From a candidate division KSB1 bacterium (GTDB lineage: Bacteria > Zhuqueibacterota > JdFR-76 > DREG01): a DNA stretch of 37,020 nucleotides. The DNA is taken from contig JADFJB010000033.1 in assembly GCA_022566355.1 (NCBI GenBank), positions 1-37,020 on the forward strand. The letters are read 5' to 3'. The notes under the pieces are model-generated. The model saw only the letters and a list, made by a program, of their open reading frames with translations, was not told the DNA's origin and ran no database searches. How positions within the stretch are numbered: the stretch's first letter is position 1; the number at the start of each line of letters is the position of its first letter. The translations under genes were made by a program, and so were the position numbers. Shown in pieces: positions 5,078 to 29,685 of the stretch.

Positions 5078-5515
5078 ATGTTGAAAACATTTTCTGCCAA
5101 AAAGGAAGAAGTTAAAAGAAAATGGTATGTGATCGATGCTGAGGATCAAGTCGTGGGAAGATTGGCAACAAAAGCAGCGACAATACTCCGAGGAAAGCAT
5201 AAACCCATTTTCACACCGCATGTGGATACGGGTGATCATATTGTAATTATCAATTGCGAAAAAGTAAGACTTACCGGGCGTAAATGGAGTCAGAAAGCAT
5301 ATCATCATCATACGACTTACCCGGGCGGCTTAAAAACAATTATTGCGGATAAATTACGTGATGAACATCCGGATCGCATCATTAAATCAGCAATATGGGG
5401 TATGATACCTCACAACAGACTTGGACGCCAAATAATGACAAAGTTACGCATTTATGCTGGTTCAGATCACCCGCACAGTGCTCAAAAACCTGAAGCTTTG
5501 GAAATTAAAGCTTAA
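5078..5515 (+). CDS. rplM: Large ribosomal subunit protein uL13
   Basis: A 145-residue protein, the normal L13 length. It has the diagnostic segments WYVIDAEDQVVGRLATKAA near the N terminus, KYRGKHKP-like RGKHKPIFTP, TGRKWSQKAYHHHTTYPGG in the middle, and WGMIPHNRLGRQ toward the end. It assembles early into the 50S subunit. A good Shine-Dalgarno (AAGGAG) precedes the ATG. It forms the standard rplM-rpsI pair with the next gene. Confidence 0.97.
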   Translation: MLKTFSAKKEEVKRKWYVIDAEDQVVGRLATKAATILRGKHKPIFTPHVDTGDHIVIINCEKVRLTGRKWSQKAYHHHTTYPGGLKTIIADKLRDEHPDRIIKSAIWGMIPHNRLGRQIMTKLRIYAGSDHPHSAQKPEALEIKA

Positions 5516-5534
5516 ATTAAATTGGAGTTAATGA

Positions 5535-5927
5535 ATGAAAGATAATAGGTATTACGCAACTGGCCGGCGAAAAGAATCCGTTGCTCGTGTTTGGATGACT
5601 CCCGGGTCTGGAGAGTTCAAAATAAATGGCAGATCTCTTCTCGATCATTTTAAGCGAGAGACATTAAAGATGTTAATCGAACAACCTTTTGAAATTACCG
5701 AAACCAGTGGCCAATATGATATTAGCGCAACTGTCAATGGCGGAGGTTTATCAGGTCAAGCCGGGGCGTTACGACTGGGAATTTCACGTGCGTTGCTTCA
5801 GATAAATGATGAAATGCGACCACTCTTAAGAAAGGCAGGATTTTTAACACGCGATCCTCGCATGGTTGAACGTAAGAAATACGGCCAACCCAAAGCGCGT
5901 AAGCGTTTTCAATTTTCGAAGAGATAA
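5535..5927 (+). CDS. rpsI: Small ribosomal subunit protein uS9
   Basis: The 130-residue length fits S9. [14 protein letters not shown] opens the protein, [20 protein letters not shown] is central, and the basic C-terminal tail [16 protein letters not shown] reaches into the ribosomal P site in known structures. GGAG lies upstream of the ATG. An out-of-frame ATG four bases earlier is ignored because it gives only a few codons. It is separated from rplM by 19 bases and is almost certainly co-transcribed with it. Confidence 0.97.
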
Positions 5928-5965
5928 ATTAATAAATATATTTTAAGAATATTAGGAGAATTTTA

Positions 5966-6727
5966 ATGCCGGAAGTTTTGTTAGAGCAACTTTTAATGGC
6001 AGGATCACATTTTGGGCATCTTACTCGAAAATGGAATCCCAAAATGAAGCCATATATTTTTATGGAACGGAACGGGATTCACATCATCGATTTGAAAAAA
6101 TCATTAGTATCATTAAAAGTTGCTTTCGATGCTGTTAAAGAAATTGTTAATCGCGGTGAAAAAGTACTTCTTGTGGGAACGAAAAAGCAGGCCAGGGATA
6201 TTATACGTTCACAAGCTGAAAGATGCGGAATGTTTTATGTAACCGAAAGATGGCTTGGAGGCACGCTTACGAATTTTAGTACGATTAAAAAGAGTATAAA
6301 GCGTTTGAAAAACCTTGAAAAGATGGCTATTGATGGAACCTTTGAGAAAATCACAAAAAAAGAAATATTGCGTTTGACAAGAGAACAAGAAAAAATGGAA
6401 AAATTCCTTGGTGGTATCAAAGATATGAATCTACTACCTGGAGCAGTTTTTATTGTTGATCCCAAAAGGGAAGATATAGCAGTTGCTGAAGCCAAAAAAC
6501 TGAATATCCCGGTATTTGCGATATTAGATACCAATTGTGATCCTGAAGAAATTGATTATCCGATACCGGCAAATGATGACGCATTTAAGTCCATTGGATT
6601 GATTACACATGGTTTCACAGACGCGATTTTGGAAAGCATGGAAGAGCTTAAGATAGCTGAAGAGGTGGAGGCTGAGGAGAAGGAAGAAGAAAAAGAAGAG
6701 AAAGCTGAAGAAAGCAAAGAGGCTTAA
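5966..6727 (+). CDS. rpsB: Small ribosomal subunit protein uS2
   Basis: A 253-residue S2. AGSHFGHLTRKWNPKMKPYI and RNGIHIIDLKKS are the family signatures, and ERWLGGTLTNFSTIKKSI is the conserved central block. The C terminus is a highly acidic Glu/Lys-rich extension (from about residue 230), common but variable in S2. It follows rpsI by 38 bases and precedes tsf, the classical arrangement. A terminator hairpin just after the gene may lower read-through into tsf. Confidence 0.97.
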   Translation: MPEVLLEQLLMAGSHFGHLTRKWNPKMKPYIFMERNGIHIIDLKKSLVSLKVAFDAVKEIVNRGEKVLLVGTKKQARDIIRSQAERCGMFYVTERWLGGTLTNFSTIKKSIKRLKNLEKMAIDGTFEKITKKEILRLTREQEKMEKFLGGIKDMNLLPGAVFIVDPKREDIAVAEAKKLNIPVFAILDTNCDPEEIDYPIPANDDAFKSIGLITHGFTDAILESMEELKIAEEVEAEEKEEEKEEKAEESKEA

Positions 6728-6768
6728 TGAATCGAGTCGCTTCGAATTAAAATTGCATTTGATTTGTT

Positions 6769-6797
6769 AAAAGCACTCGTTTCACCGAGTGCTTTTT
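6769..6797 (+). terminator. Intrinsic terminator between rpsB and tsf
   Basis: AAAAGCACTCG (6769-6779) is exactly complementary to CGAGTGCTTTT (6786-6796) across a six-base loop and is followed by a T run. It lies 42 bases after the rpsB stop. It is likely a partial terminator setting the ratio of S2 to elongation factor Ts. Confidence 0.85.
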
Positions 6798-6833
6798 AAT
6801 AGTTATTAGAATATTAGGAAGGAGTTTTATTAA

Positions 6834-7424
6834 ATGTCGATTACAGCTGCAATGGTGAAAGAATTAAGAGAAAAAACCGGTGCAGGAATGATGGATTGCA
6901 AGAATGCGCTTCAAGAAGGTAATGGTGACATTAAGAAAGCAATCGAATATCTGCGAAAAAAAGGTATGGCAGCAGCTCAAAAACGTTCCGTACGGACGAC
7001 GAAAGAAGGTATCATCGATGCATATATTCACCCCGGAAATCGCTTGGGGGTTTTGATTGAAGTCAATTGTGAAACCGATTTTGTTGCAAAAAATGAAGAA
7101 TTCAAAAAATTTATTCGAAATATGGCCATGCAGGTGGCTGCCTCAAATCCATTGGTAGTTCAAAAAGATGACCTTAGCAAGGAAATGATCGAAAAAGAGC
7201 TGGAAGTCTACCGCAGCCAGGCTAAAGAAGCGGGCAAACCGGACAATCTTATTGATAAAATTGCCCAGGGAAAACTCGGTAAATACTACCAGGAAGTATG
7301 TTTATTGGAACAAAGTTATATTAGAGATCCGGGAAAAACGGTTCAAGATATGGTCACTGATATTCGATCAGTAATCGGTGAGAATATTGTAATCAAACGT
7401 TTTGAAAGATTTCAACTCGGCTAG
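6834..7424 (+). CDS. tsf: Translation elongation factor Ts
   Basis: The guanine nucleotide exchange factor for EF-Tu. The N-terminal UBA-like domain (VKELREKTGAGMMDCKNAL) and the TDFVAKNEEF motif (81-90), whose TDFV contacts EF-Tu, are clear. At 196 residues it is the short type, as in Thermus, lacking the duplicated core and coiled coil of the E. coli protein. The ATG has a strong GGAGT-type ribosome binding site. Confidence 0.96.
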   Translation: MSITAAMVKELREKTGAGMMDCKNALQEGNGDIKKAIEYLRKKGMAAAQKRSVRTTKEGIIDAYIHPGNRLGVLIEVNCETDFVAKNEEFKKFIRNMAMQVAASNPLVVQKDDLSKEMIEKELEVYRSQAKEAGKPDNLIDKIAQGKLGKYYQEVCLLEQSYIRDPGKTVQDMVTDIRSVIGENIVIKRFERFQLG

Positions 7425-7505
7425 ATGGAGCTGTTCAAAAAATCATTTTGCTTAATAGATTTGGAATGATATTTAAACAAATTCTTAGTCAAGGAGGACC
7501 GAAGC

Positions 7506-8237
7506 ATCAGTCAACTAATTCATAAACGTATTCTCATTAAACTAAGCGGCGAAGCCCTGATGGGCTCTAAATCGTTCGGAATTGAAGCTGAAGTTGTTAA
7601 GTATATTGCACATGAGATAAAAAGTGTATATGATCTTGGGGTTGAAATTGGGATTGTGATTGGTGGTGGTAATATTTTCCGAGGATTATCTGCACATGAG
7701 CAAGGATTTGGTCGAGTTACCGGGGATCAAATGGGAATGTTAGCAACAGTCATCAATTCACTGGCAATCCAAAATTATATGGAACATTTAGGTATACATA
7801 CGAGGGTGCAGACTGCAATTCGTATGGAGGCGCTGGCGGAGCCGTATATTAGAAGGCGAGCGATTCGCCACCTTGAAAAACGCCGGATCGTAATTTTTGG
7901 TGCTGGAACCGGCAGTCCCTATTTTTCAACCGATACGGCGGCAGCGCTTCGGGCAATTGAAATTGAAGCCGGTGTTATATTGAAAGGAACCAAAGTAGAT
8001 GGCGTTTATGCAGACGATCCTAAAATTGTTCCGAATGCAGAACGATTTAAAAAAATTAGTTATATTGATCTGCTGAATCGCGGCTTGAGAGTTATGGATT
8101 TTACGGCTGTAACTCTCTGTATGGAAAACAAATTACCCATAATCGTTTTTGATATGAATAAGCCTGATAATTTTAAACGATTAATGCTTGGTGATGAAGT
8201 AGGAACTAAAATTACCGGTGAGCAAAATGAAAAGTGA
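7506..8237 (+). CDS. pyrH: UMP kinase with probable non-canonical AUC start
   Basis: Phosphorylates UMP to UDP. The ATP-binding KLSGEAL motif, with the essential lysine, is encoded upstream of the first in-frame ATG (7560), so translation must begin earlier. The frame is open back to a TGA at 7467, yet contains no ATG, GTG or TTG before CTG at 7557. A perfect AAGGAGG (7491-7497) lies eight bases before ATC at 7506, giving a 243-residue protein, the normal length. GGGNIFRG and the [13 protein letters not shown] block are conserved. A sequencing error in the start codon is the alternative. Confidence 0.88.
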
Positions 8238-8784
8238 ATTCCATAAAGATGCTGAAATAAGAATGAAAAAGACCATTGAATCGTTGAAACATGAATTTGG
8301 TCATATTCGAACCGGGAAAGCCACAACTGCCCTGCTAGACGGAATAAAAGTAGAATATTATGGTAACCCGGTACCTATTAACCAAGTGGCAAATGTTAGT
8401 GTCCCGGATATTCGAACGCTTGTAATTCAGCCCTGGGAAAAGAATATGCTAGGCGAAATTGAAAAAGGAATTTTAAAATCTGATTTGGGATTAAACCCTG
8501 TGAATGACGGTCAGGTTATCAGGGTTCCAATTCCTGTATTAACCGAAGAGCGCAGAAAAGATCTGGTCAAGTTAGTGAAGAAATTAGCGGAAGAAGGTAA
8601 AATCTCTTTAAGAAATATCCGCCGCGATGTGAACGATCATATCAAGAAGCGAGAAAAAGATCACGAAATTTCGGAAGATGCGGCTCATGCCGAATTGGAT
8701 GATATCCAAAAAGTAATCGATAGCTTTTCGGGAAAAATTGATGAGGTGGTGGTTGCCAAAGAAAAAGAAGTTATGGAAGTCTAA
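8227..8784 (+). CDS. frr: Ribosome recycling factor
   Basis: A 185-residue protein, the standard RRF length. It splits post-termination ribosomes together with EF-G. The conserved [19 protein letters not shown] and the C-terminal three-helix-bundle segments ([29 protein letters not shown]) are present. The ATG at 8227 lies inside the last codons of pyrH (an 11-base overlap), indicating translational coupling. A GTG at 8218 is in frame but less likely. Confidence 0.96.
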
Positions 8785-15117: not shown

Positions 15118-15236
15118 TTGAACTCATGAAAATGAATTTGTTAATTACTCCATTAGCGAAATATTTTGATCATTTCAAAATTAAATTAGTAGAATAACCC
15201 AATAAAATAAATTTGCTAAATAAATGGAGAGTCAAA

Positions 15237-15869
15237 ATGCATTATAGATTAATCAGATATTATACATTTATCATCTTTATGCTATTTATATTTCCATCCC
15301 AAGTAACCAGCCAGGTGAGTATAAGTAAAGGAATAAAATTTGGTCTGAATATCGCTAAGTTTACAGGAGATGATGCTGAAGGATCCGAGAATTTAACCGG
15401 TCTTGTCGTCGGTGGCCATTTACGTTTTGGCGCTGGTTTTTTATCAATTCAACCTGAACTTCTTTTCACTAGAAAAGGGGTAAAAACAAATGACATTGAA
15501 GAGGGTACCGAAATAAAAATTAAGAATGATTATTTGGAAATTCCTGTCCTGATCAGACTTGGATTTGGTCATTCTCCCGGTTTAAAACCCAGTCTCTTTG
15601 CGGGGCCATCTGCATCCTTGCTTGTGAACAGCAGGGGCTTAACAACGTTCGGAGGAGGTCAATCATCTATTGAAGTTGATGCCAACCATCTATTCAAAGA
15701 ATTTGAACTGGGATTTGTTATTGGCGCCGGTATTGATTTTACACTCGGGTTTAGAACATTACTATTTGAAGTAAGGTATTCAGGAGGACTGTCATCGATA
15801 GATGATTCAGGAGATGACGGCGATATAAAAAATAGTGTAATATCTATAATGGGTGGTTTGGCTTTTTAA
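15237..15869 (+). CDS. Small outer-membrane beta-barrel protein (copy A)
   Basis: A 210-residue exported protein. The signal peptide ends near TSQVSISKGIKFG. The rest alternates polar and hydrophobic residues with many glycines, as in eight-stranded PorT/OmpX-like barrels (GGHLRFGAGFLSIQPELLFTR). I use the ATG at 15237 after GGAGA; a TTG at 15213 would add eight residues ahead of the signal peptide. It is a paralogue of the protein encoded at 16246: both share SKGIK/GKGIKAGL, TGDD, YLEIPVL and a terminal KNSV motif. Its role, perhaps structural, is unknown. Confidence 0.82.
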   Translation: MHYRLIRYYTFIIFMLFIFPSQVTSQVSISKGIKFGLNIAKFTGDDAEGSENLTGLVVGGHLRFGAGFLSIQPELLFTRKGVKTNDIEEGTEIKIKNDYLEIPVLIRLGFGHSPGLKPSLFAGPSASLLVNSRGLTTFGGGQSSIEVDANHLFKEFELGFVIGAGIDFTLGFRTLLFEVRYSGGLSSIDDSGDDGDIKNSVISIMGGLAF

Positions 15870-16245: not shown

Positions 16246-16869
16246 ATGAAAAAGTCTGTACCAGTAATATCTTTATTCGTTTTAATGTCTCTCTTAATAA
16301 CATCTGTTTCTTTTGGCCAGGTTGGCTTTGGTAAAGGAATCAAAGCTGGTTTGGTAAGTTCTACATTAACAGGTGATGATGTAAATGACAACGCCGATCG
16401 ACGCTCTGGATTTGCAGCCGGAGCCTTTATTAATTTTGGCCTAAGCCCGCTCCCGTTATCCATTCAGGTGGAAGCGCTCTATGTTATGAAAGGAGCCGAT
16501 GAAGAGGATGTTGAAGAAGAAATTACATTTAACACAGAATTAAAGTTTACCTATTTGGAAATTCCTGTTTTAGCTAAACTTACAGTAGTAGCTCTACCGG
16601 GACTTAAACTGCAAGTTTTTGGCGGACCATCATTAGGTATTCTCCTGAGTGCCAAATCCAAACTAACAGTTGGCAATGAATCAGCTGAAATTGATATTAA
16701 AGATGACGTGAAAAGTACAGATTTAGGATTAGTGCTAGGAGTCGCTTTAGGAATCAGTAAAATACATTTTGATGTAAGATACATAATGAGTATGTCCACT
16801 ATAGACGAAGTTGATGAAGATGATGTAAAAAATAGTGTATTAATGGCAACAGCTGGAATCTCACTGTAA
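16246..16869 (+). CDS. Small outer-membrane beta-barrel protein (copy B)
   Basis: A 207-residue exported protein whose signal peptide ends at SFGQ (residue 25). The mature part has the same barrel pattern as the preceding gene: GKGIKAGLVSSTLTGDD, INFGLSPLPLSIQVEALYVMKG, YLEIPVLAKL and a KNSV C terminus. The two likely arose by duplication and have since diverged considerably. An acidic stretch (DEEDVEEE) probably forms an outer loop. A GGAGG precedes the ATG and a strong terminator follows, so the gene is probably transcribed alone. Confidence 0.85.
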   Translation: MKKSVPVISLFVLMSLLITSVSFGQVGFGKGIKAGLVSSTLTGDDVNDNADRRSGFAAGAFINFGLSPLPLSIQVEALYVMKGADEEDVEEEITFNTELKFTYLEIPVLAKLTVVALPGLKLQVFGGPSLGILLSAKSKLTVGNESAEIDIKDDVKSTDLGLVLGVALGISKIHFDVRYIMSMSTIDEVDEDDVKNSVLMATAGISL

Positions 16870-17035: not shown

Positions 17036-17977
17036 TTGTTTAAACCGAAGATTAAAGTCAAATCCATTATTCTAGTTTTTCATTTTATAAATCTACCCTT
17101 ATTCGCTCAATCAATTATTCCTTTAGATTATCTGTATTCAATTGGATCATCCGGGGATAGCCTTGGACAATTTAATAATCCGCAAGCCATAACTATTGGA
17201 TCATCGGGGAATTTATATGTTGTCGATACCGGTAATAATAGAATTCAAATTTTCGATCTTGAAGGAAACTTTATCAAATATTTTGGTGGATTAGGCCAGG
17301 GTCAGGAACAATTTGATTCTCCATTAGATATCAATTTCCAGGACGGATTAAACGTATTTGTCACCGATTTTAATAATCATAGGGTATATCGTTTAGACCG
17401 GCAATTAAATGCAATTTCCATCATTTCCGGAGAAGTGGCTTACGGAAACGTCGAAAATTTCTTCTTCCCGAAAAGTATTACAGTTTCCAAACAAGGTGAT
17501 ATTTTCCTTGTTGAAGGTGAAAATAACAGTGTGATAAAGTTTGATTCTTTCTTCAAACCCATCTCAAAATTCGGTTCAATCGAAACCGGTGAAGGATATT
17601 TAAGTTCACCGACACAAATCGAGAATTTAGGCGTGGGATTTCTTGTTGTCAGTGATAAGCAAGCCGGCCACCTCGTGGTATTTGATTATTTTGGAAATTT
17701 TATCCGATTTTTAGGGGGCGAAAAATTGCAGGAGCCGTCAGGGTTGTTTTATTGGAATGAAAGAGAATTACTGCTAGTAACGGATATAGGTACTGGAAAA
17801 ATTCATGCCTTTAAAAGGGAAAAATGGATTGTCGAATTGGTTTCAATACAAAAATCAGATGAATCAAAATGGCAGACACCTGTTGACATAGCTGTGTTTG
17901 AAAACAGAATATTTGTGTTGGATCAAAAGAATAGTTCAATTTTAGTTTATCAAATATTGTTGAACCAAAAAGAATAA
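17036..17977 (+). CDS. Exported NHL-repeat beta-propeller protein
   Basis: A 313-residue protein with a signal peptide (cleavage near FAQS, residue 25). NHL repeats follow: GQFNNPQAITIGSSGNLYVVD with TGNNRIQIFD, then QFDSPLDI with FVTDFNNHRVYRLD, then further weaker copies (SPKSIT-like, FLVEGENNSVIKFD), consistent with a six-bladed propeller. Such propellers commonly act as periplasmic or surface interaction scaffolds. The start is TTG at 17036, eight bases after AGGAAG; no in-frame ATG precedes the signal sequence. It is the first gene of the envelope cluster and lies 79 bases before the giant barrel gene, suggesting a partner role. Confidence 0.85.
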   Translation: MFKPKIKVKSIILVFHFINLPLFAQSIIPLDYLYSIGSSGDSLGQFNNPQAITIGSSGNLYVVDTGNNRIQIFDLEGNFIKYFGGLGQGQEQFDSPLDINFQDGLNVFVTDFNNHRVYRLDRQLNAISIISGEVAYGNVENFFFPKSITVSKQGDIFLVEGENNSVIKFDSFFKPISKFGSIETGEGYLSSPTQIENLGVGFLVVSDKQAGHLVVFDYFGNFIRFLGGEKLQEPSGLFYWNERELLLVTDIGTGKIHAFKREKWIVELVSIQKSDESKWQTPVDIAVFENRIFVLDQKNSSILVYQILLNQKE

Positions 17978-18056
17978 TAAAGTTGCCAACTCGAAATGAT
18001 GGATTTGTCCAGACGTATGACAAAGGGAAATTGAGGGGCTTCAAGATCTTGCCGTA

Positions 18057-21000
18057 ATGAAAATATCACCATACATTTTGATATTGATTTCTCTCCTTCT
18101 TTTTTGTGAAAGCCAGGCACAAAATCAATCGTACCGGAAATTTCAACGTATCGTTGAAAAAATTAAAATCAATCAAGCCGATACACTGTTGCAGCTTAGG
18201 TATACTTTCATTGTTCCACAATCGGAAGAAATCGAATTCAAAAGCAGATCCCTAAATCGAGAGGTTGATTATCAAATTGATTATCGATTAGGAATTGTAC
18301 GCTTATCAACGGAAACAATAAAAGAAGACTCAATCCGGATATCCTACCGGATATTACCGATTCAATTGAAACCGAATTACCAATTTATGCCTTTTGTCCT
18401 TTGGCAGCCTAAACCGGAGCGAGTCAAAAACTCAGCAAACAATGTTGGATCAGTTCAGAAAAAAGATGTCTCAGATATTTTTGAGAATAGCCAATTGCGG
18501 CGAAGCGGTAGTTTAACCAGGAGTATTTCGGTTGGCAATAGACAGGGGTTACAAGTAGAATCTGGCTTGCGTTTACAATTGGAAGGGAAAATCACCTCGG
18601 ATGTGCATGTAGTTGCCATGCTGTCTGATCAGAATATTCCCATTCAACCGGAGGGCAATACCCAAACACTGCAGGAAATAGACAAGGTTTATATTCAAAT
18701 CCGGGGCCCGAAAATTCAGGCGCAATTAGGCGATTTTAATTTAAAATATTCAGGCGGGCGATTTGGTAATTATAATCGAAAACTGCAGGGAGCCATGCTG
18801 CAATACTCGCAAGGGTCCGGTACTGCCACAGTTTCCGGGGCAGTTTCAAAAGGAAAATTTCAGACCCAAAGATTCACCGGACAGGAAGGGCTTCAAGGTC
18901 CATATCAATTGCAAGGCAGCCGGGGTGAGTCAGAGATTATTGTGTTATCCGGAACAGAAAGAGTATGGGTGGATGGCGAACCGATGATACGAGGTGATGA
19001 AAATGATTATGTGATAGATTATGGCAACGGACAAATAACATTTACACGAAAACGTCTGATTACCGGTGATTCAAGAATTGAAGTTGATTTTGAATTCTCT
19101 GACTTCAATTTCCAAAGGAATTTGTACAGCGCTCACCTGAACGGAATAGGATTTGATAACAAATTGAAATACAACGTTTTATTCATCCGCGAAGCCGATG
19201 ATCCCAATAACTTGCTGGAGGTCGGCCTGAATGATCAAGAACGGATTATTCTTGAAAATTTGGGTGATGAAACTGATAGTGCATTCGTAGAAAGTGGAAG
19301 GTTTGTTGGCCCGGGGAAAGGCAACTATACCCTGGTTGATTCACTTGGACAACAAATCTATCAATTTGCTGGAAATGGCCTGGGAGATTATTTGGTTCAA
19401 TTTACTTACAAAGGTGTCGGCAACGGTGAATATAGTTATGCAGGTCAAGGCCGATATCGATTTACAGGTTTAGGTAATGGCAACTATTCACCAAAACGGA
19501 TTCTACCCATCGCTCAAAGCCAGAATCTTACTTCATTCTACCTGCAGTTTGATCCGAATGAAATTTTGCAATTTTCGGGGGAATTCGCGTTGAGTCTAAC
19601 AGATAGAAATTTAATGTCAGCACTGGATGATAATGACAACCTGGGCTCGGCATTTCAAATTCAGGCTCGGATTAGTCCCCGGAAGCTTCAATTTGGGAAA
19701 ACATCGGTTGGTAGTGTTCAACTTTCGGGATTATGGCGGGAAAAAGGGAAAAGATTTTTTGAGCTAAGCCGGGATGAAGAAGTGGAATATGATAGAAAAT
19801 GGGATTTGTCAGCAAATGGCGGTAGACAAGGAGAAAAGGTTAGAGAATTAAACTCAACCTATTTACCATTTAAGGGAGGGCAGTTGAGATTGAATTGGGG
19901 AGATTATCACCAGGATAATTTTATTTCGTCTCGGCGATTGCTTTCGGAATTTTCACTGAAAAAGCCAAAATTTCCTGAAATTCAATATCGGGAAGAAAGC
20001 ATTCATCGCTCCGATCAGGCAATCCGGATCAATGGAGATTGGTTTCGACGATTGGGATCCGCACAATACCGGGTTTGGCGAATTCGTCCCTTTTTTAGAT
20101 ATGAAGGAGAAAATAAAAAAGACATTTCGTTTTCTGATTCATTGAGAACCGGTTTTAATTTTGATGATTTCTCTTATGGAATAGGATTTAAGATTGCAAA
20201 ACCATTAGAAATTAGTATCAGGCAAAACCTTCGAGAAGATCAACAAGTAACCGATGGTGGTTTGCAGGATTATTCAAGAGCTGAAGCTACATTCATCAAA
20301 ATGTCATTAAAACGTTGGCGCAACTTGCAATTGAACCTTGAACTAACCAACCGGAAAAGGGAATTTGTTCAATCGGATTTACCCGAAAAACGAACAAGGT
20401 TAACAGATTTTGTGGGGATCTATTCTCCCTGGAAAAAAGCTTTGCAGGCTGATCTCAGGGTAAGGATGTCAAATACCCAAATTTCAAAAACCGAGCAATT
20501 TTATTTTAAGGTAGATGAAGGTAGAGGGAATTTTCGTTTCGAAGAGGAATTGAATGAATATGTTCCGGATATTTTTGGAGATTTCATTCTTCGTACTTTG
20601 GCAACCGGAGAATTCGAACCGGTAAATGAACTCTTAATGAATGCAAAAATTAAAATTAAACCTCAATTGTTTTGGGGAAAAACCAATAAAAAACAATCTA
20701 AACTAAAACGGTGGCTGAGCAGTATTTCGTGGTTGACTTATTTCTCGTTTGACGAAAAAAGTAGACGAGATAGTCCCTGGAAAATTTCATTTGGCGGTGC
20801 CGATAAGATTTTTCCGGATGAAGAAACGGTTTTTGGCAGGTACCTGGTTCGGCAAGATCTAAATTTTTTTGAAAATGTTTATACCAGATCCTTGAGGATC
20901 AGGTGGTTGTCGAGCCTTGAGAAGAACAACAGGTTAACGGGAGGTGGACAAGAATCAAAAAGGAATGAAATATCCATTCGGTTTAAATCAAAAGTATCAA

Positions 21001-21485
21001 AAAAATATTCATTGGAAACGACTCTTAGTGAAATTAATATCGAGCGTCTTTTTGAGTCAGCAACCCGGGTGGATCGAAAGATTTTATCAAGAGGCGGTAA
21101 GTTGCGTTTGAGCTATCGTCCAAAATCTGTATTGGAAATTGCTGCCGACTTAAAATTCAAGCACGATTTGGATCGAGTTAAAAGTCCGGGAACCAGCGCT
21201 AACCTAATAGGTATTAAACCTAATTTCAGCTATGCTTTACGAGGCAGAGGCCGGTTAAGAGGTGAAATCGAATTCTCGAAAGTTACTGTCAAACCATCCA
21301 ATGCGATTATTCCATACGAAATGGTAGATGGCCGTCGTGAAGGTCGAAATTTTAACTGGCTGTTTAGTTTTGATTATCGTGCTTCATCACGGGTGATGAT
21401 CTTATTTAGCTACCTGGGCAGGCAATTACCCGGAAGAGATGAACTGCAACATATCGGCAAAGTAGAAGTAAAGGCATACTTTTAA
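18057..21485 (+). CDS. Large outer-membrane protein of unknown function
   Basis: 1142 residues with a signal peptide (cleavage near SQAQ, residue 22). After an N-terminal segment (about 25-120) comes LRLQLEGKITSDVHVVAMLSD-type strand DNA, NIPIQPEGNTQTLQEIDKVYI, GTERVWVDGEPMIRGDENDYVIDYGNGQITFT (about 295-330) and a Gly-Asn-Gly-Tyr repeat region (about 420-481). The rest is long beta-strand sequence rich in Arg and aromatic residues, ending in VEVKAYF, as for an outer-membrane barrel. I recognise the pattern as recurring in FCB-group genomes but know no characterised member; LptD- or SprA-like translocon roles are only guesses. The stop overlaps the following Omp85 gene (TAATG). Confidence 0.75.
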   Translation: MKISPYILILISLLLFCESQAQNQSYRKFQRIVEKIKINQADTLLQLRYTFIVPQSEEIEFKSRSLNREVDYQIDYRLGIVRLSTETIKEDSIRISYRILPIQLKPNYQFMPFVLWQPKPERVKNSANNVGSVQKKDVSDIFENSQLRRSGSLTRSISVGNRQGLQVESGLRLQLEGKITSDVHVVAMLSDQNIPIQPEGNTQTLQEIDKVYIQIRGPKIQAQLGDFNLKYSGGRFGNYNRKLQGAMLQYSQGSGTATVSGAVSKGKFQTQRFTGQEGLQGPYQLQGSRGESEIIVLSGTERVWVDGEPMIRGDENDYVIDYGNGQITFTRKRLITGDSRIEVDFEFSDFNFQRNLYSAHLNGIGFDNKLKYNVLFIREADDPNNLLEVGLNDQERIILENLGDETDSAFVESGRFVGPGKGNYTLVDSLGQQIYQFAGNGLGDYLVQFTYKGVGNGEYSYAGQGRYRFTGLGNGNYSPKRILPIAQSQNLTSFYLQFDPNEILQFSGEFALSLTDRNLMSALDDNDNLGSAFQIQARISPRKLQFGKTSVGSVQLSGLWREKGKRFFELSRDEEVEYDRKWDLSANGGRQGEKVRELNSTYLPFKGGQLRLNWGDYHQDNFISSRRLLSEFSLKKPKFPEIQYREESIHRSDQAIRINGDWFRRLGSAQYRVWRIRPFFRYEGENKKDISFSDSLRTGFNFDDFSYGIGFKIAKPLEISIRQNLREDQQVTDGGLQDYSRAEATFIKMSLKRWRNLQLNLELTNRKREFVQSDLPEKRTRLTDFVGIYSPWKKALQADLRVRMSNTQISKTEQFYFKVDEGRGNFRFEEELNEYVPDIFGDFILRTLATGEFEPVNELLMNAKIKIKPQLFWGKTNKKQSKLKRWLSSISWLTYFSFDEKSRRDSPWKISFGGADKIFPDEETVFGRYLVRQDLNFFENVYTRSLRIRWLSSLEKNNRLTGGGQESKRNEISIRFKSKVSKKYSLETTLSEINIERLFESATRVDRKILSRGGKLRLSYRPKSVLEIAADLKFKHDLDRVKSPGTSANLIGIKPNFSYALRGRGRLRGEIEFSKVTVKPSNAIIPYEMVDGRREGRNFNWLFSFDYRASSRVMILFSYLGRQLPGRDELQHIGKVEVKAYF

Positions 21486-23314
21486 TGGAACTTGAGTTCA
21501 AAATTAATATCCAAAATCCTATCGTGATGAGCCTGTTGATCCCAGTAGGATTTTTCATAAGTATCTGTCCTATAAATGTTTTGGGCCAACACTATCAAGA
21601 TGAAGAAAAAAAAATAAAATATTTAAACTTTTCCTTTCATGGCAATAAGGTTTACAATAATCGGCAAATTAGAGAATTGCTGAATTTACCCAAAAGTGTT
21701 AAAAATTCTAATCAGAATGATAACCTCGGACAAACAAAAATACAATTCGAAAACAATTTACAAAAGCTGTTGTCAGCATACCAAAGTGAGGGCTTTCTCG
21801 CCGCTAAAGTTGACTCGATATTTTGGCCGGGTAAAAGTAAAAAACGTCAGACCGTAGAAATATATTTTTCAGAGGGTGAACCGTTCACTATTAACCAATT
21901 GCTGATCATCGGAAATTCGGCCTTTTCGAAACAGCAAATCAAACAATTTATGAGGGCAAGTCCAGGTGTAATTTTTAAGAGTCAGCAATTGGCGGTGGAT
22001 GTGCAGGAAATAATAGCACGCTATGCTGCCGAAGGATATTTGTTGGTCAATGTGGAAATTCAAAAAATAGATATTCGTTTTCAGGATGGCGTAGTTGACA
22101 TTTTGTTAGTAATCAAGGAAGGAAAACCCATCGTTCTGAAAAGAGTTGAAATTACCGGCAATACGAATACACAAAATAAAGTCATCTTACGAGAGTTGGG
22201 ATTCAATAAGAATGAAATTCTAACAAGCAGAAAAATATCTAAGATCAGTGAAAAAATAAAAAGGTTGAAGTATTTGGAATTAACGGAACAGCCGAAGCTT
22301 ACTTTTTCTCCTGACTCTTCAGCAATCCTTTTGCTCTCAGTCCGAGAGAAAAACAGTTCACAATTCGATGGCATTTTAGGATTTAATCCAAAACAAGGTA
22401 ACCAGAATGAATATTTATCCGGCCAGGTTAAAATTAATTTTGAGAATTTATTGGGTACAGGCCGGTCTTTCCGGGCTTATTGGGCTAAACAGAATGCTAA
22501 CACCCAGAGCCTGCAATTGAACTACGAAGAACCCTGGTTGGGTGGACAGCCAATTCACGGTAGAATTAACCTGGAGCAAACTGTTCAAGACACTACTTTT
22601 GTGCGTAGAAACTGGCAGATGGGTTTACGGGTTTTTGTTTTGGAGGATATTGCCGTTGTTGCTCAAATTGGCAGAGAAAGTGTGTTGCCGGATTCTATCG
22701 GGCGAGCTGTTTACCAATTACCCAGGAGTCTGGCAGATAGGCTGCGTTTACAAGTCTCAATGGATAATAGAAATCATCCATGGAATCCGACGGCTGGGTT
22801 GTTGTATGAAACAAGTGTCGATTTCCTTAAAAAACGAATTGAGCCATTAATTCCCGGCGAAAGTGGGCAAAAGATAAACTTTCACCGTTTAAGCTTTGAC
22901 CTGGAATTTTATCAAAAACTATTTGGCAGAAATGTTTTGATGGCTGGATTTCATGGGAAACTGGTCAAAATGAATGGATTTAGTATACCTATTGATGAGC
23001 TGTTTCGATTGGGTGGGGCAAGTGATCTTCGTGGTTATCGCGACGATCAATTCATGGGTGAAAAAATCGCATGGGCTAATCTGGAGTATCGATTGCTTTT
23101 GGATAGAACATCACGGCTTACAATGTTTTTGGACTTAGGATATATCGAGCGAGGTAACAATTCCGGAACTTTGGACAAAATTTACAAATCGGGTTATGGT
23201 TTTGGTTTATGGACTCAAACCGATTTAGGAATCATCGGATTTGATTTTGCTCTCGGAGAAGGAGATAGCTTCTCACAGGGTAAAGTTCACATTCGGTTGA
23301 TTAATGTTTTTTAG
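21485..23314 (+). CDS. Omp85-family protein with POTRA domains (BamA/TamA-like)
   Basis: 609 residues. A hydrophobic export signal (about 13-35) is followed by POTRA-like modules: LNFSFHGNKVYNNRQIRELL (about 47-110), INQLLIIGNSAFSKQQIKQF (about 135-195) and LKRVEITGNTNTQNKVIL (about 220-285). The C-terminal half is a 16-stranded-type barrel with LFRLGGASDLRGYRDDQF, the conserved lid-lock motif of Omp85 proteins. It is shorter than BamA (usually five POTRAs) and resembles TamA in size. Its start codon overlaps the stop of the giant barrel gene, so the two products are probably made together. Confidence 0.88.
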   Translation: MELEFKINIQNPIVMSLLIPVGFFISICPINVLGQHYQDEEKKIKYLNFSFHGNKVYNNRQIRELLNLPKSVKNSNQNDNLGQTKIQFENNLQKLLSAYQSEGFLAAKVDSIFWPGKSKKRQTVEIYFSEGEPFTINQLLIIGNSAFSKQQIKQFMRASPGVIFKSQQLAVDVQEIIARYAAEGYLLVNVEIQKIDIRFQDGVVDILLVIKEGKPIVLKRVEITGNTNTQNKVILRELGFNKNEILTSRKISKISEKIKRLKYLELTEQPKLTFSPDSSAILLLSVREKNSSQFDGILGFNPKQGNQNEYLSGQVKINFENLLGTGRSFRAYWAKQNANTQSLQLNYEEPWLGGQPIHGRINLEQTVQDTTFVRRNWQMGLRVFVLEDIAVVAQIGRESVLPDSIGRAVYQLPRSLADRLRLQVSMDNRNHPWNPTAGLLYETSVDFLKKRIEPLIPGESGQKINFHRLSFDLEFYQKLFGRNVLMAGFHGKLVKMNGFSIPIDELFRLGGASDLRGYRDDQFMGEKIAWANLEYRLLLDRTSRLTMFLDLGYIERGNNSGTLDKIYKSGYGFGLWTQTDLGIIGFDFALGEGDSFSQGKVHIRLINVF

Positions 23315-23347
23315 TTTACTAAAATACAGGGTTGTTAAAAATAAAAA

Positions 23348-23491
23348 TTGAAACTTCTAAAAATCAACCAACTGTCTTTTCGACGAAGCGAAGCGAGGAG
23401 AAATCTTGTTCTCCCTAAGTATGGATTAAAAGATTTCTCGTCGTAAACTCCTCGAAATGACAACATTATAGGTATTTTTCAGAAGTTTCTA
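23348..23491. repeat. REP-like nested inverted repeat
   Basis: An outer pair, GAAACTTCTAAAAA (23350-23363) with TTTTTCAGAAGTTTC (23475-23489), encloses a longer imperfect pair (23372-23405 and 23431-23462) ending in GAGAAATCT / AGATTTCTC and in TGTCTTTTCGA / TCGAAATGACA. The inner sequence resembles a palindromic repeat that I recall between genes in many FCB genomes. It fills most of the 243-base gap between two Omp85-type genes. Confidence 0.75.
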
Positions 23492-23557
23492 ATCGTCTGT
23501 TTATTCATTTAGTGCAGGGATACAGCGCCGATAAACCGGAAATCATATGGAGGTTAA

Positions 23558-24766
23558 ATGCACAATTCAGTTCATTTTAAGGTCGTATTGCTCTTTTTAA
23601 TTACTTTAATCAAAATGGCTAGCTGCCTGCAACCCACTTATGCCCAATTTAAAGTGGAACCCAAACCTAATCCTTTCGCAATTGATAAGAAGAAAACCAA
23701 ATATTATTCGCCTTTACGCTATAATAGGGTAGAGGGATTATTCCCCGCGCTTGGATTAAAAATAAAAAACAATGTCGACAGTCCTTTAACTTTTTTTGGA
23801 GATTTCGGATATGGTTTAAAGAGTAAGGAAGTTGGCTTTAACCTGGGGTTAGAATTTAAATCACCTTCATGGCAAATATTTAAGATTGGCGGGAAATATT
23901 TTGAAGACACATTTACCCAAGACGATTGGATTATTTCCAGGCTTGAGAACACTCTGGCTGCACTTTTTATACGAGGAGATTTTAGAGATTTTTACAAGGT
24001 AAAAGGATTTTCAATCTGGACGTCAAAAGATTTTCAAGAAGATGTACATTTCAGGCTGTCGTTTTGGTCTGGTGAGTATGAGGAAATGGTAAAGAATACA
24101 AAATGGAGTCTTTTTGGTGGTGATAAAAAATTTCGCAATAATCCGGCAATCACGGCAGGAACTGAAAATAAGCTCAGGTTTGAATGGATAATCGACAAAT
24201 TGGATAATCCTATGTTTCCAATGGAGGGCTGGTATTTGGAAGGAGCGTTTGAAAAAGGTGGTGATTTTTTGGGCGGTGATTTTGATCAGAGTGGAATATT
24301 TGTTTCAGGCAAAGTATTGAAACCGACGATACTAAACCAAAGACTTGTTTTGAGTGGAAGATATGGATATCGTGCTGATTCTAGGGCGCCGCAACACTTA
24401 ATGGATTTAGGCGGAATTAGTACATTACGAGGGTACAACTACAAAGAATTTCAGAATGGCAATGTATTGACTTTGGGCGCTATCCAATATTATTTCAATG
24501 GAGATATTTTACAAAAACTGCCTTTCCAGTTTATCCCCCTTTACAGCAGCCTTGGATTGGTACTATTTATGGAAGTTGGGGCGTTGTGGAACTCCAATGG
24601 AAATAGTTTCCTGAGCTCAAATGTTTCCGACAGCCCGGATTGGAAATCGGATGCAGGTTTTTCACTGAATGTAATCGGTGATTTTTTTCGAGTTGATTTT
24701 GCCAAAAGATTGGATCGTAGCAAAGACACCTGGGCGATAACCGTTAGATTACTTCCCAAAATTTAA
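23558..24766 (+). CDS. Omp85-type outer-membrane barrel without POTRA domains
   Basis: 402 residues with a signal peptide (cleavage near TYAQ, residue 31). The mature protein is nearly all barrel: FGYGLKSKEVGFNLGLEF early, NPMFPMEGWYLEGAFEKGG (the D15 surface-antigen block), then DLGGISTLRGYNYKEF, the Omp85 lid-lock motif, and VRLLPKI at the C terminus. With no POTRA domain it resembles the patatin-free, POTRA-less D15 barrels of Bacteroidetes and relatives, whose roles are unclear. GGAGG lies upstream of the ATG. A REP-like element separates it from the preceding gene, so it may have its own promoter. Confidence 0.78.
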   Translation: MHNSVHFKVVLLFLITLIKMASCLQPTYAQFKVEPKPNPFAIDKKKTKYYSPLRYNRVEGLFPALGLKIKNNVDSPLTFFGDFGYGLKSKEVGFNLGLEFKSPSWQIFKIGGKYFEDTFTQDDWIISRLENTLAALFIRGDFRDFYKVKGFSIWTSKDFQEDVHFRLSFWSGEYEEMVKNTKWSLFGGDKKFRNNPAITAGTENKLRFEWIIDKLDNPMFPMEGWYLEGAFEKGGDFLGGDFDQSGIFVSGKVLKPTILNQRLVLSGRYGYRADSRAPQHLMDLGGISTLRGYNYKEFQNGNVLTLGAIQYYFNGDILQKLPFQFIPLYSSLGLVLFMEVGALWNSNGNSFLSSNVSDSPDWKSDAGFSLNVIGDFFRVDFAKRLDRSKDTWAITVRLLPKI

Positions 24767-24878
24767 TAAAAGGGAAAATATTGTGACTTAAATAAGATTC
24801 ATCATAATAATGGATACTTCGACAAAATCTTGTATTGATCGCAATCCAAGTTCAATATTATTAATCTTGAGGTAACAA

Positions 24879-26285
24879 ATGCAAAATTATCAGCCTTCGA
24901 CTCCGCTCAGGCTGCTGGGATTGAGCTATGGTGAGCGGAGTCGAACCATGAATTCACTTTTGTCTGACTCACATTATTTTTTCAGGAATAGTACTAAAAG
25001 AATTCTGCCAGTATTGTGTGGATTGCTTTTTCAATGCTATGTTTGCCATGCCCAGGAGAGTGTCCCGGATTCTGTCCAAATTGGAAAAATTAATGTTATC
25101 GGGAACAATAAAACCAAAGATCATATTGTCACCAGAGAATTGGAATTTAGAACGGATGATTGGGTTTCAACGGATGACCTTAACCAAGCGCGTTTGAGAA
25201 TCGTTAATCTCAATCTATTTAATAATGTTGAGTTTTATTTTGATCAAAATGGCGATTTGTATGATTTAAACATCATTGTATACGAACGATGGTACATTAT
25301 TCCAATTCCCATATTTTTCCGAAATGATCGGGATTGGGACAGACTCTCGTATGGTTTAGGAGTATCCCATGCTAATTTTCGAGGGCGCAACGAACGGCTT
25401 TGGTTATCAGGATGGCTAGGTTATAATCCAAGTTTTAGCTTAAGTTATTATAATCCATGGATTACCACCAAACGACGTATATATTCTCAACTCAGCGCAT
25501 TTTCCCAGAGAATAAAAACCAAATCTTTTCTATTTGTTGGAGAAGATGAAAAACATCATGGGATTTCGTTTGTTCTGGGTCGCCGCTATGGTTTGCATTG
25601 GTATGTGAATACATTATTTGGTTTCAATTTGATTCGAACAACGAATCGTGAAATGTTGTGGAGGCCAACACACCAAAACGATAAAGTTGGTTCCTGGCAA
25701 ATTTCGATTCGACATGATACCAGGGATTTGTGGGAATATCCCAAAAATGGCGCTCATCGTAGATTCTCATTCACACATCATCGCCTGTTAAACGGAGGAT
25801 TGAGTTACAATTTGTTATTTCTTGATTTACGCCAGTACAAAAGTATAAAAGGTGTTGTTCTCGCCGGCAGGTTTTCTACAACCGTTACACAAAACCGTTT
25901 GCCTTCCTACCGCCAACTTTATTTTGGTTATTCTAGACGGATAAGGGGCTATTTCAATGAAATTATTGAGGGTGAAAGGTCAATGATTGCCTCTGCTGAG
26001 TTGCGAATTCCTTTAATTCGAGAACGATTTATACCCCTTTCCCCGGATGCCTGGTATTATTCGTTTATTCAATTCATGAAATTCGGAGTTTATTTGACAT
26101 TGTTTCACGACACAGGGGCTATTTGGGACCAAAAGGAAAAACTGGGGCATCAGCACTTTCTAAGCGGTTCAGGGATAGGGCTGAATATTCTTTTGCCATA
26201 TTCGTCGGTGCTTAGGATCGAACGCGCTTACAATGAAGACGGTATAGGGGAAACCATATTTGATGCACAAATTGCCTTTGATTGA
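24879..26285 (+). CDS. Single-POTRA Omp85-family outer-membrane protein
   Basis: Up to 468 residues. One POTRA domain (IGKINVIGNNKTKDHIVTRE to NNVEFYF, about 70-125) is followed by a barrel with FGYSRRIRGYFNEIIEGE, the Omp85 lid-lock region. The signal peptide lies at about 40-59 (KRILPVLCGLLFQCYVCHAQ). Two starts are possible: ATG 24879, or ATG 24948, which lies eight bases after a GGAG inside a palindromic repeat. Residues 6-23 of the long form merely translate that repeat, so 24948 (445 residues) may be the functional start. Together with the two genes before it, this makes three Omp85 relatives in a row. Confidence 0.83.
   Translation: MQNYQPSTPLRLLGLSYGERSRTMNSLLSDSHYFFRNSTKRILPVLCGLLFQCYVCHAQESVPDSVQIGKINVIGNNKTKDHIVTRELEFRTDDWVSTDDLNQARLRIVNLNLFNNVEFYFDQNGDLYDLNIIVYERWYIIPIPIFFRNDRDWDRLSYGLGVSHANFRGRNERLWLSGWLGYNPSFSLSYYNPWITTKRRIYSQLSAFSQRIKTKSFLFVGEDEKHHGISFVLGRRYGLHWYVNTLFGFNLIRTTNREMLWRPTHQNDKVGSWQISIRHDTRDLWEYPKNGAHRRFSFTHHRLLNGGLSYNLLFLDLRQYKSIKGVVLAGRFSTTVTQNRLPSYRQLYFGYSRRIRGYFNEIIEGERSMIASAELRIPLIRERFIPLSPDAWYYSFIQFMKFGVYLTLFHDTGAIWDQKEKLGHQHFLSGSGIGLNILLPYSSVLRIERAYNEDGIGETIFDAQIAFD
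24896..24945. repeat. REP-like palindrome at the start of an Omp85 gene
   Basis: TTCGACTCCGCTCA (24896-24909) and TGAGCGGAGTCGAA (24932-24945) are perfect complements around a 22-base loop. The sequence is like a palindromic repeat that I recall as widespread between bacterial genes. Here it lies between two candidate start codons and its right arm supplies the GGAG before the ATG at 24948. Confidence 0.85.
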
Positions 26286-26294
26286 GTGCGATTT

Positions 26295-29030: not shown

Positions 29031-29321
29031 ATGGATCCTAAAGAAATAATTCACCTATTGAAAATATTTAAAGAAGAAAATAAGAATAAATATCATATAA
29101 AAAAAATTGGAATTTTTGGATCAGTTGCTAAAGATAGAATGAATGAGAAAAGTGATATTGATATTGTTGTAAATTTGACAAAACAGGACTTGTTTGAATT
29201 AATCGGTATTAAGCAGGATTTAGAGGAAAGACTAAAATGTCCAATCGATATTGTTAGTTATAGGAAAACAATGAATTCATTCCTTAAAAAACGAATCGAT
29301 GAGGAAGCAGTTTATGTATGA
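29031..29321 (+). CDS. mntA: MntA-type nucleotidyltransferase antitoxin
   Basis: A 96-residue minimal nucleotidyltransferase. The active site GSX10DXD is exact: Gly30-Ser31 then Asp42-Ile43-Asp44 (GSVAKDRMNEKSDID). In the characterised HepT/MntA systems such proteins neutralise the HEPN RNase by adding AMP units to a tyrosine. The ATG at 29031 follows GGAAG by five bases; ATG 29019 or GTG 29004 are in-frame alternatives. It overlaps the HEPN gene by eight bases, as expected for a coupled toxin-antitoxin pair. Confidence 0.87.
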   Translation: MDPKEIIHLLKIFKEENKNKYHIKKIGIFGSVAKDRMNEKSDIDIVVNLTKQDLFELIGIKQDLEERLKCPIDIVSYRKTMNSFLKKRIDEEAVYV

Positions 29322-29685
29322 TAAAGAACTTGCTAAAGAAATACTAAATCAAATTTATCATGCAACAGAGCTTATTTTGCAACGGTTTGAGTCAATTCAT
29401 AATGTTACTGATTTTACAAATAGCACAGCTGGAATGGAAAAACTAGATTCTATTTGTATGCAGCTTATAGTAATTGGTGAGGGATTAAAAAATTTTGATA
29501 AAGTTACTGAAAACTCTATTTTGTCAAAATATCGCCAAATCGAATGGAAGAAAGCAAAAGGATTAAGGGATATTATTACTCATCACTATATTGACATCAA
29601 TGCTGAAGCTATTTATGACATATGTAAACATAAAATAGATAAATTAGCAGAAACCGTTAATAAAATATTAGAAGATATTGAATGA
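29314..29685 (+). CDS. hepT: HepT-type HEPN ribonuclease toxin
   Basis: A 123-residue all-helical HEPN protein. The motif RX4HXY is exact: Arg85, His90 and Tyr92 in GLRDIITHHY. Arg and His form the RNase site and the tyrosine is the residue AMPylated by MntA in characterised pairs. The ATG at 29314 overlaps the end of mntA and is preceded by GAGGAAG. An earlier ATG at 29299 would add five residues. All key residues are intact, so the module looks functional. Confidence 0.88.
   Translation: MYDKELAKEILNQIYHATELILQRFESIHNVTDFTNSTAGMEKLDSICMQLIVIGEGLKNFDKVTENSILSKYRQIEWKKAKGLRDIITHHYIDINAEAIYDICKHKIDKLAETVNKILEDIE

Follow-up and report, generated by a model that had tools for sequence, protein, structure and literature searches.

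The DNA analysed here (hereafter the window: 37,020 nucleotides, contig G000:C33 of the candidate division KSB1 genome G000) carries a conserved unit of three genes, NHL-BIG-OMP, whose central product, BIG, is a half-length, distant relative of SprA, a homology that is well supported by profile comparison. BIG is probably an undescribed outer-membrane conduit. In the best reading of the evidence—one to which we assign about even chances—it is an SprA-type giant conduit that is co-encoded with an insertase and a propeller. A first-pass annotation of the window had proposed that five consecutive genes form a dedicated outer-membrane machine outside the known systems. Such a unit, conserved among FCB bacteria, is borne out for the three-gene cassette; the five genes do not make up one machine, only three of them being conserved together and the barrel usually standing alone in Bacteroidota and Ignavibacteria. 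The five genes are:

17036-17977, + strand: NHL-repeat beta-propeller gene (313 aa, with a signal sequence at the N-terminus), which opens the conserved cassette
18057-21485, + strand: BIG, predicted giant outer-membrane barrel protein related to SprA (1142 aa)
21485-23314, + strand: OMP, BamA-family Omp85 protein (609 aa; three POTRA domains and a 16-strand barrel)
23558-24766, + strand: Omp85 barrel without POTRA (402 aa), a lineage-specific neighbour outside the conserved cassette
24879-26285, + strand: Omp85 protein with one POTRA (468 aa), a lineage-specific neighbour

The positions, + strand and lengths of all five open reading frames (313, 1142, 609, 402 and 468 aa) were confirmed, and the domains that had been assigned to them agree with Pfam: (i) four NHL repeats in the propeller (PF01436, 2.3e-21), (ii) an Omp85 barrel with three POTRA domains in OMP (PF01103, 1.1e-22, plus three PF07244), (iii) an Omp85 barrel with no POTRA in the 402-aa protein (PF01103, 2.6e-15, and a weak DUF5686 match), and (iv) an Omp85 barrel with a single POTRA in the 468-aa protein (PF01103, 3.8e-14; PF07244, 3.8e-08). 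The reported overlap of the BIG and OMP genes is also real: the sequence TAATG at 21483-21487, with one base shared. From this overlap the first-pass annotation had suggested that the two proteins may be produced in a fixed ratio. The 468-aa Omp85 gene is abutted by the housekeeping gene rsmE, which starts at 26286. At the other end, two small outer-membrane barrels directly precede the NHL gene, at window positions 15213-15869 and 16246-16869 (a TDE1717-like protein with a weak PorT/SprT match, and an OMP_b-brl_2 protein). Window positions 29299-29685 hold a HepT-type toxin-antitoxin RNase-like gene, with a score under the family cut-off.

Conservation of gene order in FCB genomes, which had been suggested as a check on the five-gene proposal, holds for NHL, BIG and OMP and fails for the remaining two genes. 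The cassette is found through candidate division KSB1 and in several other FCB phyla: of 153 BIG-family loci, 68 have an NHL gene at -1 in the same orientation and 55 an OMP-type Omp85 gene at +1. Median gaps are 15.5 nt (NHL-BIG) and 11 nt (BIG-OMP), with most genes separated by no more than 50 nt or overlapping. Gene maps show the three genes kept together while their surroundings otherwise vary, often downstream of housekeeping genes whose counterparts sit at window positions 5078-8784. Counterparts of the 402- and 468-aa genes lie beside the cassette in only one other genus, of the same family (locus L040, genome G001), for which reason a five-gene machine is rejected.

On the BIG tree, presence of OMP changes state 11 times (mean 26.8 and minimum 21 for shuffled labels), as does presence of NHL (shuffled mean 34). 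So few changes indicate that the cassette arrangement is inherited, not scattered. Genuine OMP orthologues (E<1e-60) occur in 33 of 39 KSB1 relatives, all 33 of which also carry BIG, while one relative (G012, 94% complete) has neither. Ignavibacteria and most Bacteroidota carry BIG without adjoining NHL and OMP genes—neither is present beside 34 of the 39 drawn Bacteroidota loci—and the two partners are therefore not essential everywhere.

BIG itself is widespread. It is present in 29 of 30 high-quality KSB1-relative genomes, and as a single copy in 36 of the 39 relatives; extra matches in a handful of fragmented genomes come from pieces of that one gene. At least 575 BIG loci turned up when GTDB genomes were scanned, and the top 80 bear the labels KSB1, Calditrichota, LCP-89, Zixibacteria, Gemmatimonadota, Marinimicrobia, Latescibacterota, Ignavibacteria and Bacteroidetes (apart from a few under other names or plain 'bacterium'). 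BIG was found in 174 of 297 Bacteroidota genomes (an even draw across the phylum to which an Ignavibacteria genome belongs, treated as Bacteroidota) and in 111 of 150 Marinimicrobia genomes (drawn from the phylum of a Marinimicrobia genome), and plasmid records gave no BIG match. The family has a median length of 1156 aa. Two candidate members were set aside: a 1603-aa frame (L247), which resembles a fusion and most probably reflects a GC-rich frame that extends beyond the real start in the upstream direction, and a 1118-aa SprA-motif protein (L249), apparently a different protein that has only the small beta-domain in common with BIG. Some neighbourhoods have genes of their own. In Ignavibacteria-type loci (L143, L191, L194) BIG is immediately preceded by MacB/FtsX-type permease genes in tandem, and in one Bacteroidota clade (L199, L200, L202, L204, L227, L229) it has a DsbD-type gene upstream and ExbB-ExbD-ExbD downstream.

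The following features were recognised within BIG:

18057-18122, + strand: signal peptide, ~aa 1-22 (MKISPYILILISLLLFCESQAQ; helix 5-15 in the AlphaFold2 model; judged by eye)
18156-18353, + strand: first SprA-type beta-domain, aa 34-99 (predicted periplasmic; aligned by hhalign to SprA 619-680, and also matched by TIGR04189)
18498-21482, + strand: predicted barrel region, aa 148-1142 (~40 beta-strands and short loops, from DSSP on the AlphaFold2 model)
18639-18656, + strand: PIQPEG motif, aa 195-200 (almost invariant; lies in the loop that joins strands 3 and 4)
18882-19097, + strand: second SprA-type beta-domain, aa 276-347 (an insertion that separates strands 8 and 9; aligned by hhalign to SprA 627-677)

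Three lines of sequence evidence connect BIG to SprA. Firstly, BIG gives a local match to the SprA model TIGR04189 (NCBIfam; 2.1e-10, 38.5 bits against an equivalog cut-off of 200 bits), as do 20 of 31 BIG relatives. Secondly, a KSB1 SprA profile finds two copies of a ~65-residue SprA beta-domain in BIG: the first (match span aa 25-105) aligns by hhalign with a segment E-value of 3.9e-10 (reversed control 0.4), and the second (aa 276-347) aligns with the same SprA domain at 1.1e-10 (reversed control 0.22). Thirdly, with deeper profiles, an N-terminal barrel segment (aa 140-275) aligns with SprA 202-319 (E 1.3e-5) and a C-terminal segment (aa 880-1142) with SprA 1766-2016 (E 1.3e-3). The matches are collinear except for the duplicated domain, and no reversed-profile control does better than E 0.11; residues 560-900, in mid-chain, have no similarity to SprA in the profile alignment. 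SprA had been named in the first-pass annotation as a protein worth comparing, which the local match and the collinear segments show to be the right lead. The description of BIG as an unassigned barrel stands insofar as the protein falls outside known family models—no Pfam or NCBIfam model of its own exists—and gives way to a more specific one, that of an SprA relative. BIG is not the SprA of the type IX secretion system (T9SS), since a true SprA of 2028 aa is encoded on another contig of the same genome (G000:C76), which also encodes about 92 T9SS type A cargo tails.

The predicted structure is compatible with this relation. An AlphaFold2 model built from 77 sequences (pLDDT 87.6, pTM 0.77) begins with a beta-domain and a disordered linker (aa 109-143), after which come about 40 long strands with short turns or loops, a number that is a DSSP count and not that of a closed barrel seen in three dimensions; the second beta-domain and a glycine-rich insertion are placed between barrel strands. 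The last residue is F in 128 of 153 members. BIG would be a Sec-exported, giant outer-membrane barrel whose strands presumably close. Its most conserved stretch is aa 150-350, which includes the PIQPEG motif; pLDDT falls below 50 around the motif (aa 193-207), which is a likely candidate for contact with a partner or substrate. The three best fold matches of BIG in the PDB are SprA structures. BIG superposes poorly on SprA (TM 0.26-0.31; rmsd about 27-33 A), and the E-values of other barrels come close to those of SprA, so that the fold comparison agrees with the SprA relation rather than proving it. Single-sequence and profile searches against solved structures gave no relevant match, a viral fold library gave generic barrels and beta proteins alone, and a dyad-hydropathy count, tried as a membrane-strand test, failed to tell barrels apart from the soluble propeller and carries no weight here. 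A weak match to DUF2460 (phage) in 13 of 31 members is, like the phage-tail matches, tentatively put down to the small beta-domain.

A third SprA-related architecture was encountered along the way. Two KSB1 genomes (L248:667-4785, + strand; L250:1226-5719, - strand) encode a propeller fused to an SprA-type barrel, with Reg_prop repeats, a weakly PorZ-like N-terminus and an SprA match of E 4e-22. This is a different, rarer protein than BIG. The fusion is nevertheless suggestive, because gene fusion often reflects contact.

OMP is a BamA paralogue, distinct from the genome's own BamA. Its AlphaFold2 model (pLDDT 87.7) has the three POTRA domains and 16 barrel strands that place it in the Omp85 superfamily, and its best PDB match, by sequence and by fold, is BamA, with which it aligns over POTRA3-5 and the barrel. 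It scores 196.8 bits against the BamA model TIGR03303, under the 297-bit cut-off, and a separate BamA-type protein of ~780 aa is encoded in G000 (G000:C27) and in its relatives. As for the propeller, a lipobox is recognisable in 8 of 68 NHL members and most are without one. In a Flavobacterium BAM study from 2025, FCB-specific BAM subunits are tied to the building of complex outer-membrane proteins, SprA included (PMC12611786); from what is reported there, a special assembly need of giant barrels seems reasonable.

On these grounds, we propose the following scheme: (i) BIG would be exported by Sec and become a giant outer-membrane barrel, a slimmed-down relative of SprA; (ii) OMP, made from the overlapping gene, would most likely fold and insert BIG, as BamA does ordinary barrels; (iii) the NHL propeller may work with them in the periplasm, keeping hold of the unfolded BIG chain or handing it over in the manner of BamB, or else may gate the finished pore; and (iv) the finished barrel would serve as a wide conduit that exports a large substrate, beside the T9SS in FCB bacteria. 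Export is proposed because BIG is related to SprA, a protein-export pore in which bound substrate has been seen, as described in PMC10994853. In its most far-reaching form, which we put forward tentatively and would not call likely, BIG forms the pore of an export system, undescribed and spread across FCB bacteria, that shares a common ancestor with the T9SS translocon and that, in most FCB phyla other than Bacteroidota, has its own insertase (OMP) and propeller.

Whether BIG instead has a role tied to the T9SS turns largely on co-occurrence. Among the 297 Bacteroidota genomes, SprA is present in 173 of the 174 that carry BIG, 55 have SprA alone, and 68 have neither: a nested pattern (Fisher p 1.5e-31, with genomes counted without correction for phylogeny). 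Both proteins are also present in all 12 further BIG genomes checked across many FCB groups, and G000 has its SprA and cargo tails. The propeller-SprA fusion with its PorZ-like N-terminus points the same way. SprA accompanies BIG in 110 of 111 Marinimicrobia genomes; however, it is nearly universal in that sample (148 of 150), so the co-occurrence is uninformative there as a test. Against a T9SS role, the two come apart in both directions: G320, one of the Bacteroidota genomes, retains BIG but lacks SprA and shows a single marginal cargo tail, which makes it a useful case for a T9SS-independent role, while G012 has SprA and 85 cargo tails with no BIG, as the 55 Bacteroidota genomes and Marinimicrobia of 0.8-1.0 Mb likewise have SprA without BIG. 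Further, no T9SS core gene was identified among the neighbours adjoining BIG loci. BIG, then, goes with T9SS-bearing genomes yet is separable from the T9SS, as G320 and G012 demonstrate, and we consider a T9SS role unlikely, if a serious contender. The small Marinimicrobia genomes (G370-G380) are of interest in themselves: the presence of SprA in such streamlined genomes means that it is retained under strong genome reduction.

The remaining explanations fare considerably worse. The first-pass annotation had offered lipid export among the possible functions, and the unit could accordingly be a machine for the export or assembly of lipid or lipopolysaccharide-type molecules, with BIG in an LptD-like function. 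A wide barrel beside an Omp85 protein would be compatible with this, and LptD chains are among the fold matches of BIG; but those matches are no better than the ones to TonB receptors, no LptD or OstA Pfam domain is found in BIG at E<=1, and no Lpt gene was recognised among the annotated neighbour families. We judge lipid export improbable. Very improbable, too, is an arrangement in which OMP is a working two-partner-type transporter and BIG its large substrate: the overlapping, adjacent genes recall TpsB/TpsA and OMP has a weak ShlB match (7e-4), but OMP is closest to BamA rather than to FhaC/ShlB, and BIG, widespread without an adjoining OMP, is a predicted barrel with a C-terminal aromatic residue, not a passenger. 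Hardly credible is the idea of a plain porin or TonB-dependent receptor, merely large and beside Omp85 genes by chance, an identity that would have told against the first-pass proposal: BtuB, Cir and SusC structures are among the fold matches of BIG, but no plug or receptor Pfam domain is found in it at E<=1, and single copy number, gene order conserved across phyla and collinear SprA homology all speak against it.

The preferred reading, an SprA-type conduit with a co-encoded insertase and propeller, appears to be new: no description of an SprA paralogue like BIG, or of an Omp85 protein with NHL repeats, was found in the open-licence literature (preprints excluded). The novelty would lie in a giant barrel of SprA kinship whose genes for a BamA-type and a propeller partner come with it. 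BIG, moreover, is a giant outer-membrane protein, single copy and common through a major branch of bacteria, for which Pfam and NCBIfam have no family model. Its relation to SprA places the T9SS translocon within a broader superfamily (SprA, BIG and the rarer propeller-fused form), which bears on the origin of the T9SS. With a BamA paralogue and its probable client encoded side by side, the insertion of giant barrels would become directly testable.

The cassette resembles several known systems in part. The Flavobacterium BAM complex (BamADGHMP) is likewise an FCB-specific elaboration of barrel assembly, but the subunits named in PMC12611786 include neither an NHL protein nor a BIG-like barrel. 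BamB-type and PorZ propellers are, like the NHL protein, exported beta-propellers encoded with an outer-membrane assembly or secretion unit; the NHL protein differs in its NHL-type repeats and in matching neither BamB nor PorZ in Pfam and NCBIfam. OMP shares with TamA its three POTRA domains and 16-strand barrel, but is nearer BamA in sequence and fold, and its gene is linked not to TamB but to BIG, a protein that matches no Pfam domain, TamB's among them. To BamA (TIGR03303) it is alike in POTRA3-5 and the 16-strand barrel, and unlike in having three POTRA domains as opposed to five and in falling under the equivalog cut-off.

The closest comparison is with SprA/Sov (TIGR04189; PDB 6h3i, 8gl6). 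SprA is a single 36-strand barrel with a large extracellular cap and a lateral opening, and binds PorV and Plug. BIG has in common with it the beta-domain (in two copies), the collinear N- and C-terminal barrel segments (SprA 202-319 and 1766-2016), and the predicted character of a giant, all-beta outer-membrane protein with an FCB distribution. It differs in length (1142 aa against 2028 aa for the SprA of the same genome, and about 2000-2400 aa for the SprA class), in that no counterpart of SprA 320-610 was found in it, and in its predicted short loops where SprA has the large cap. Finally, BIG coexists with a true SprA, and is linked to Omp85 and NHL genes of its own.
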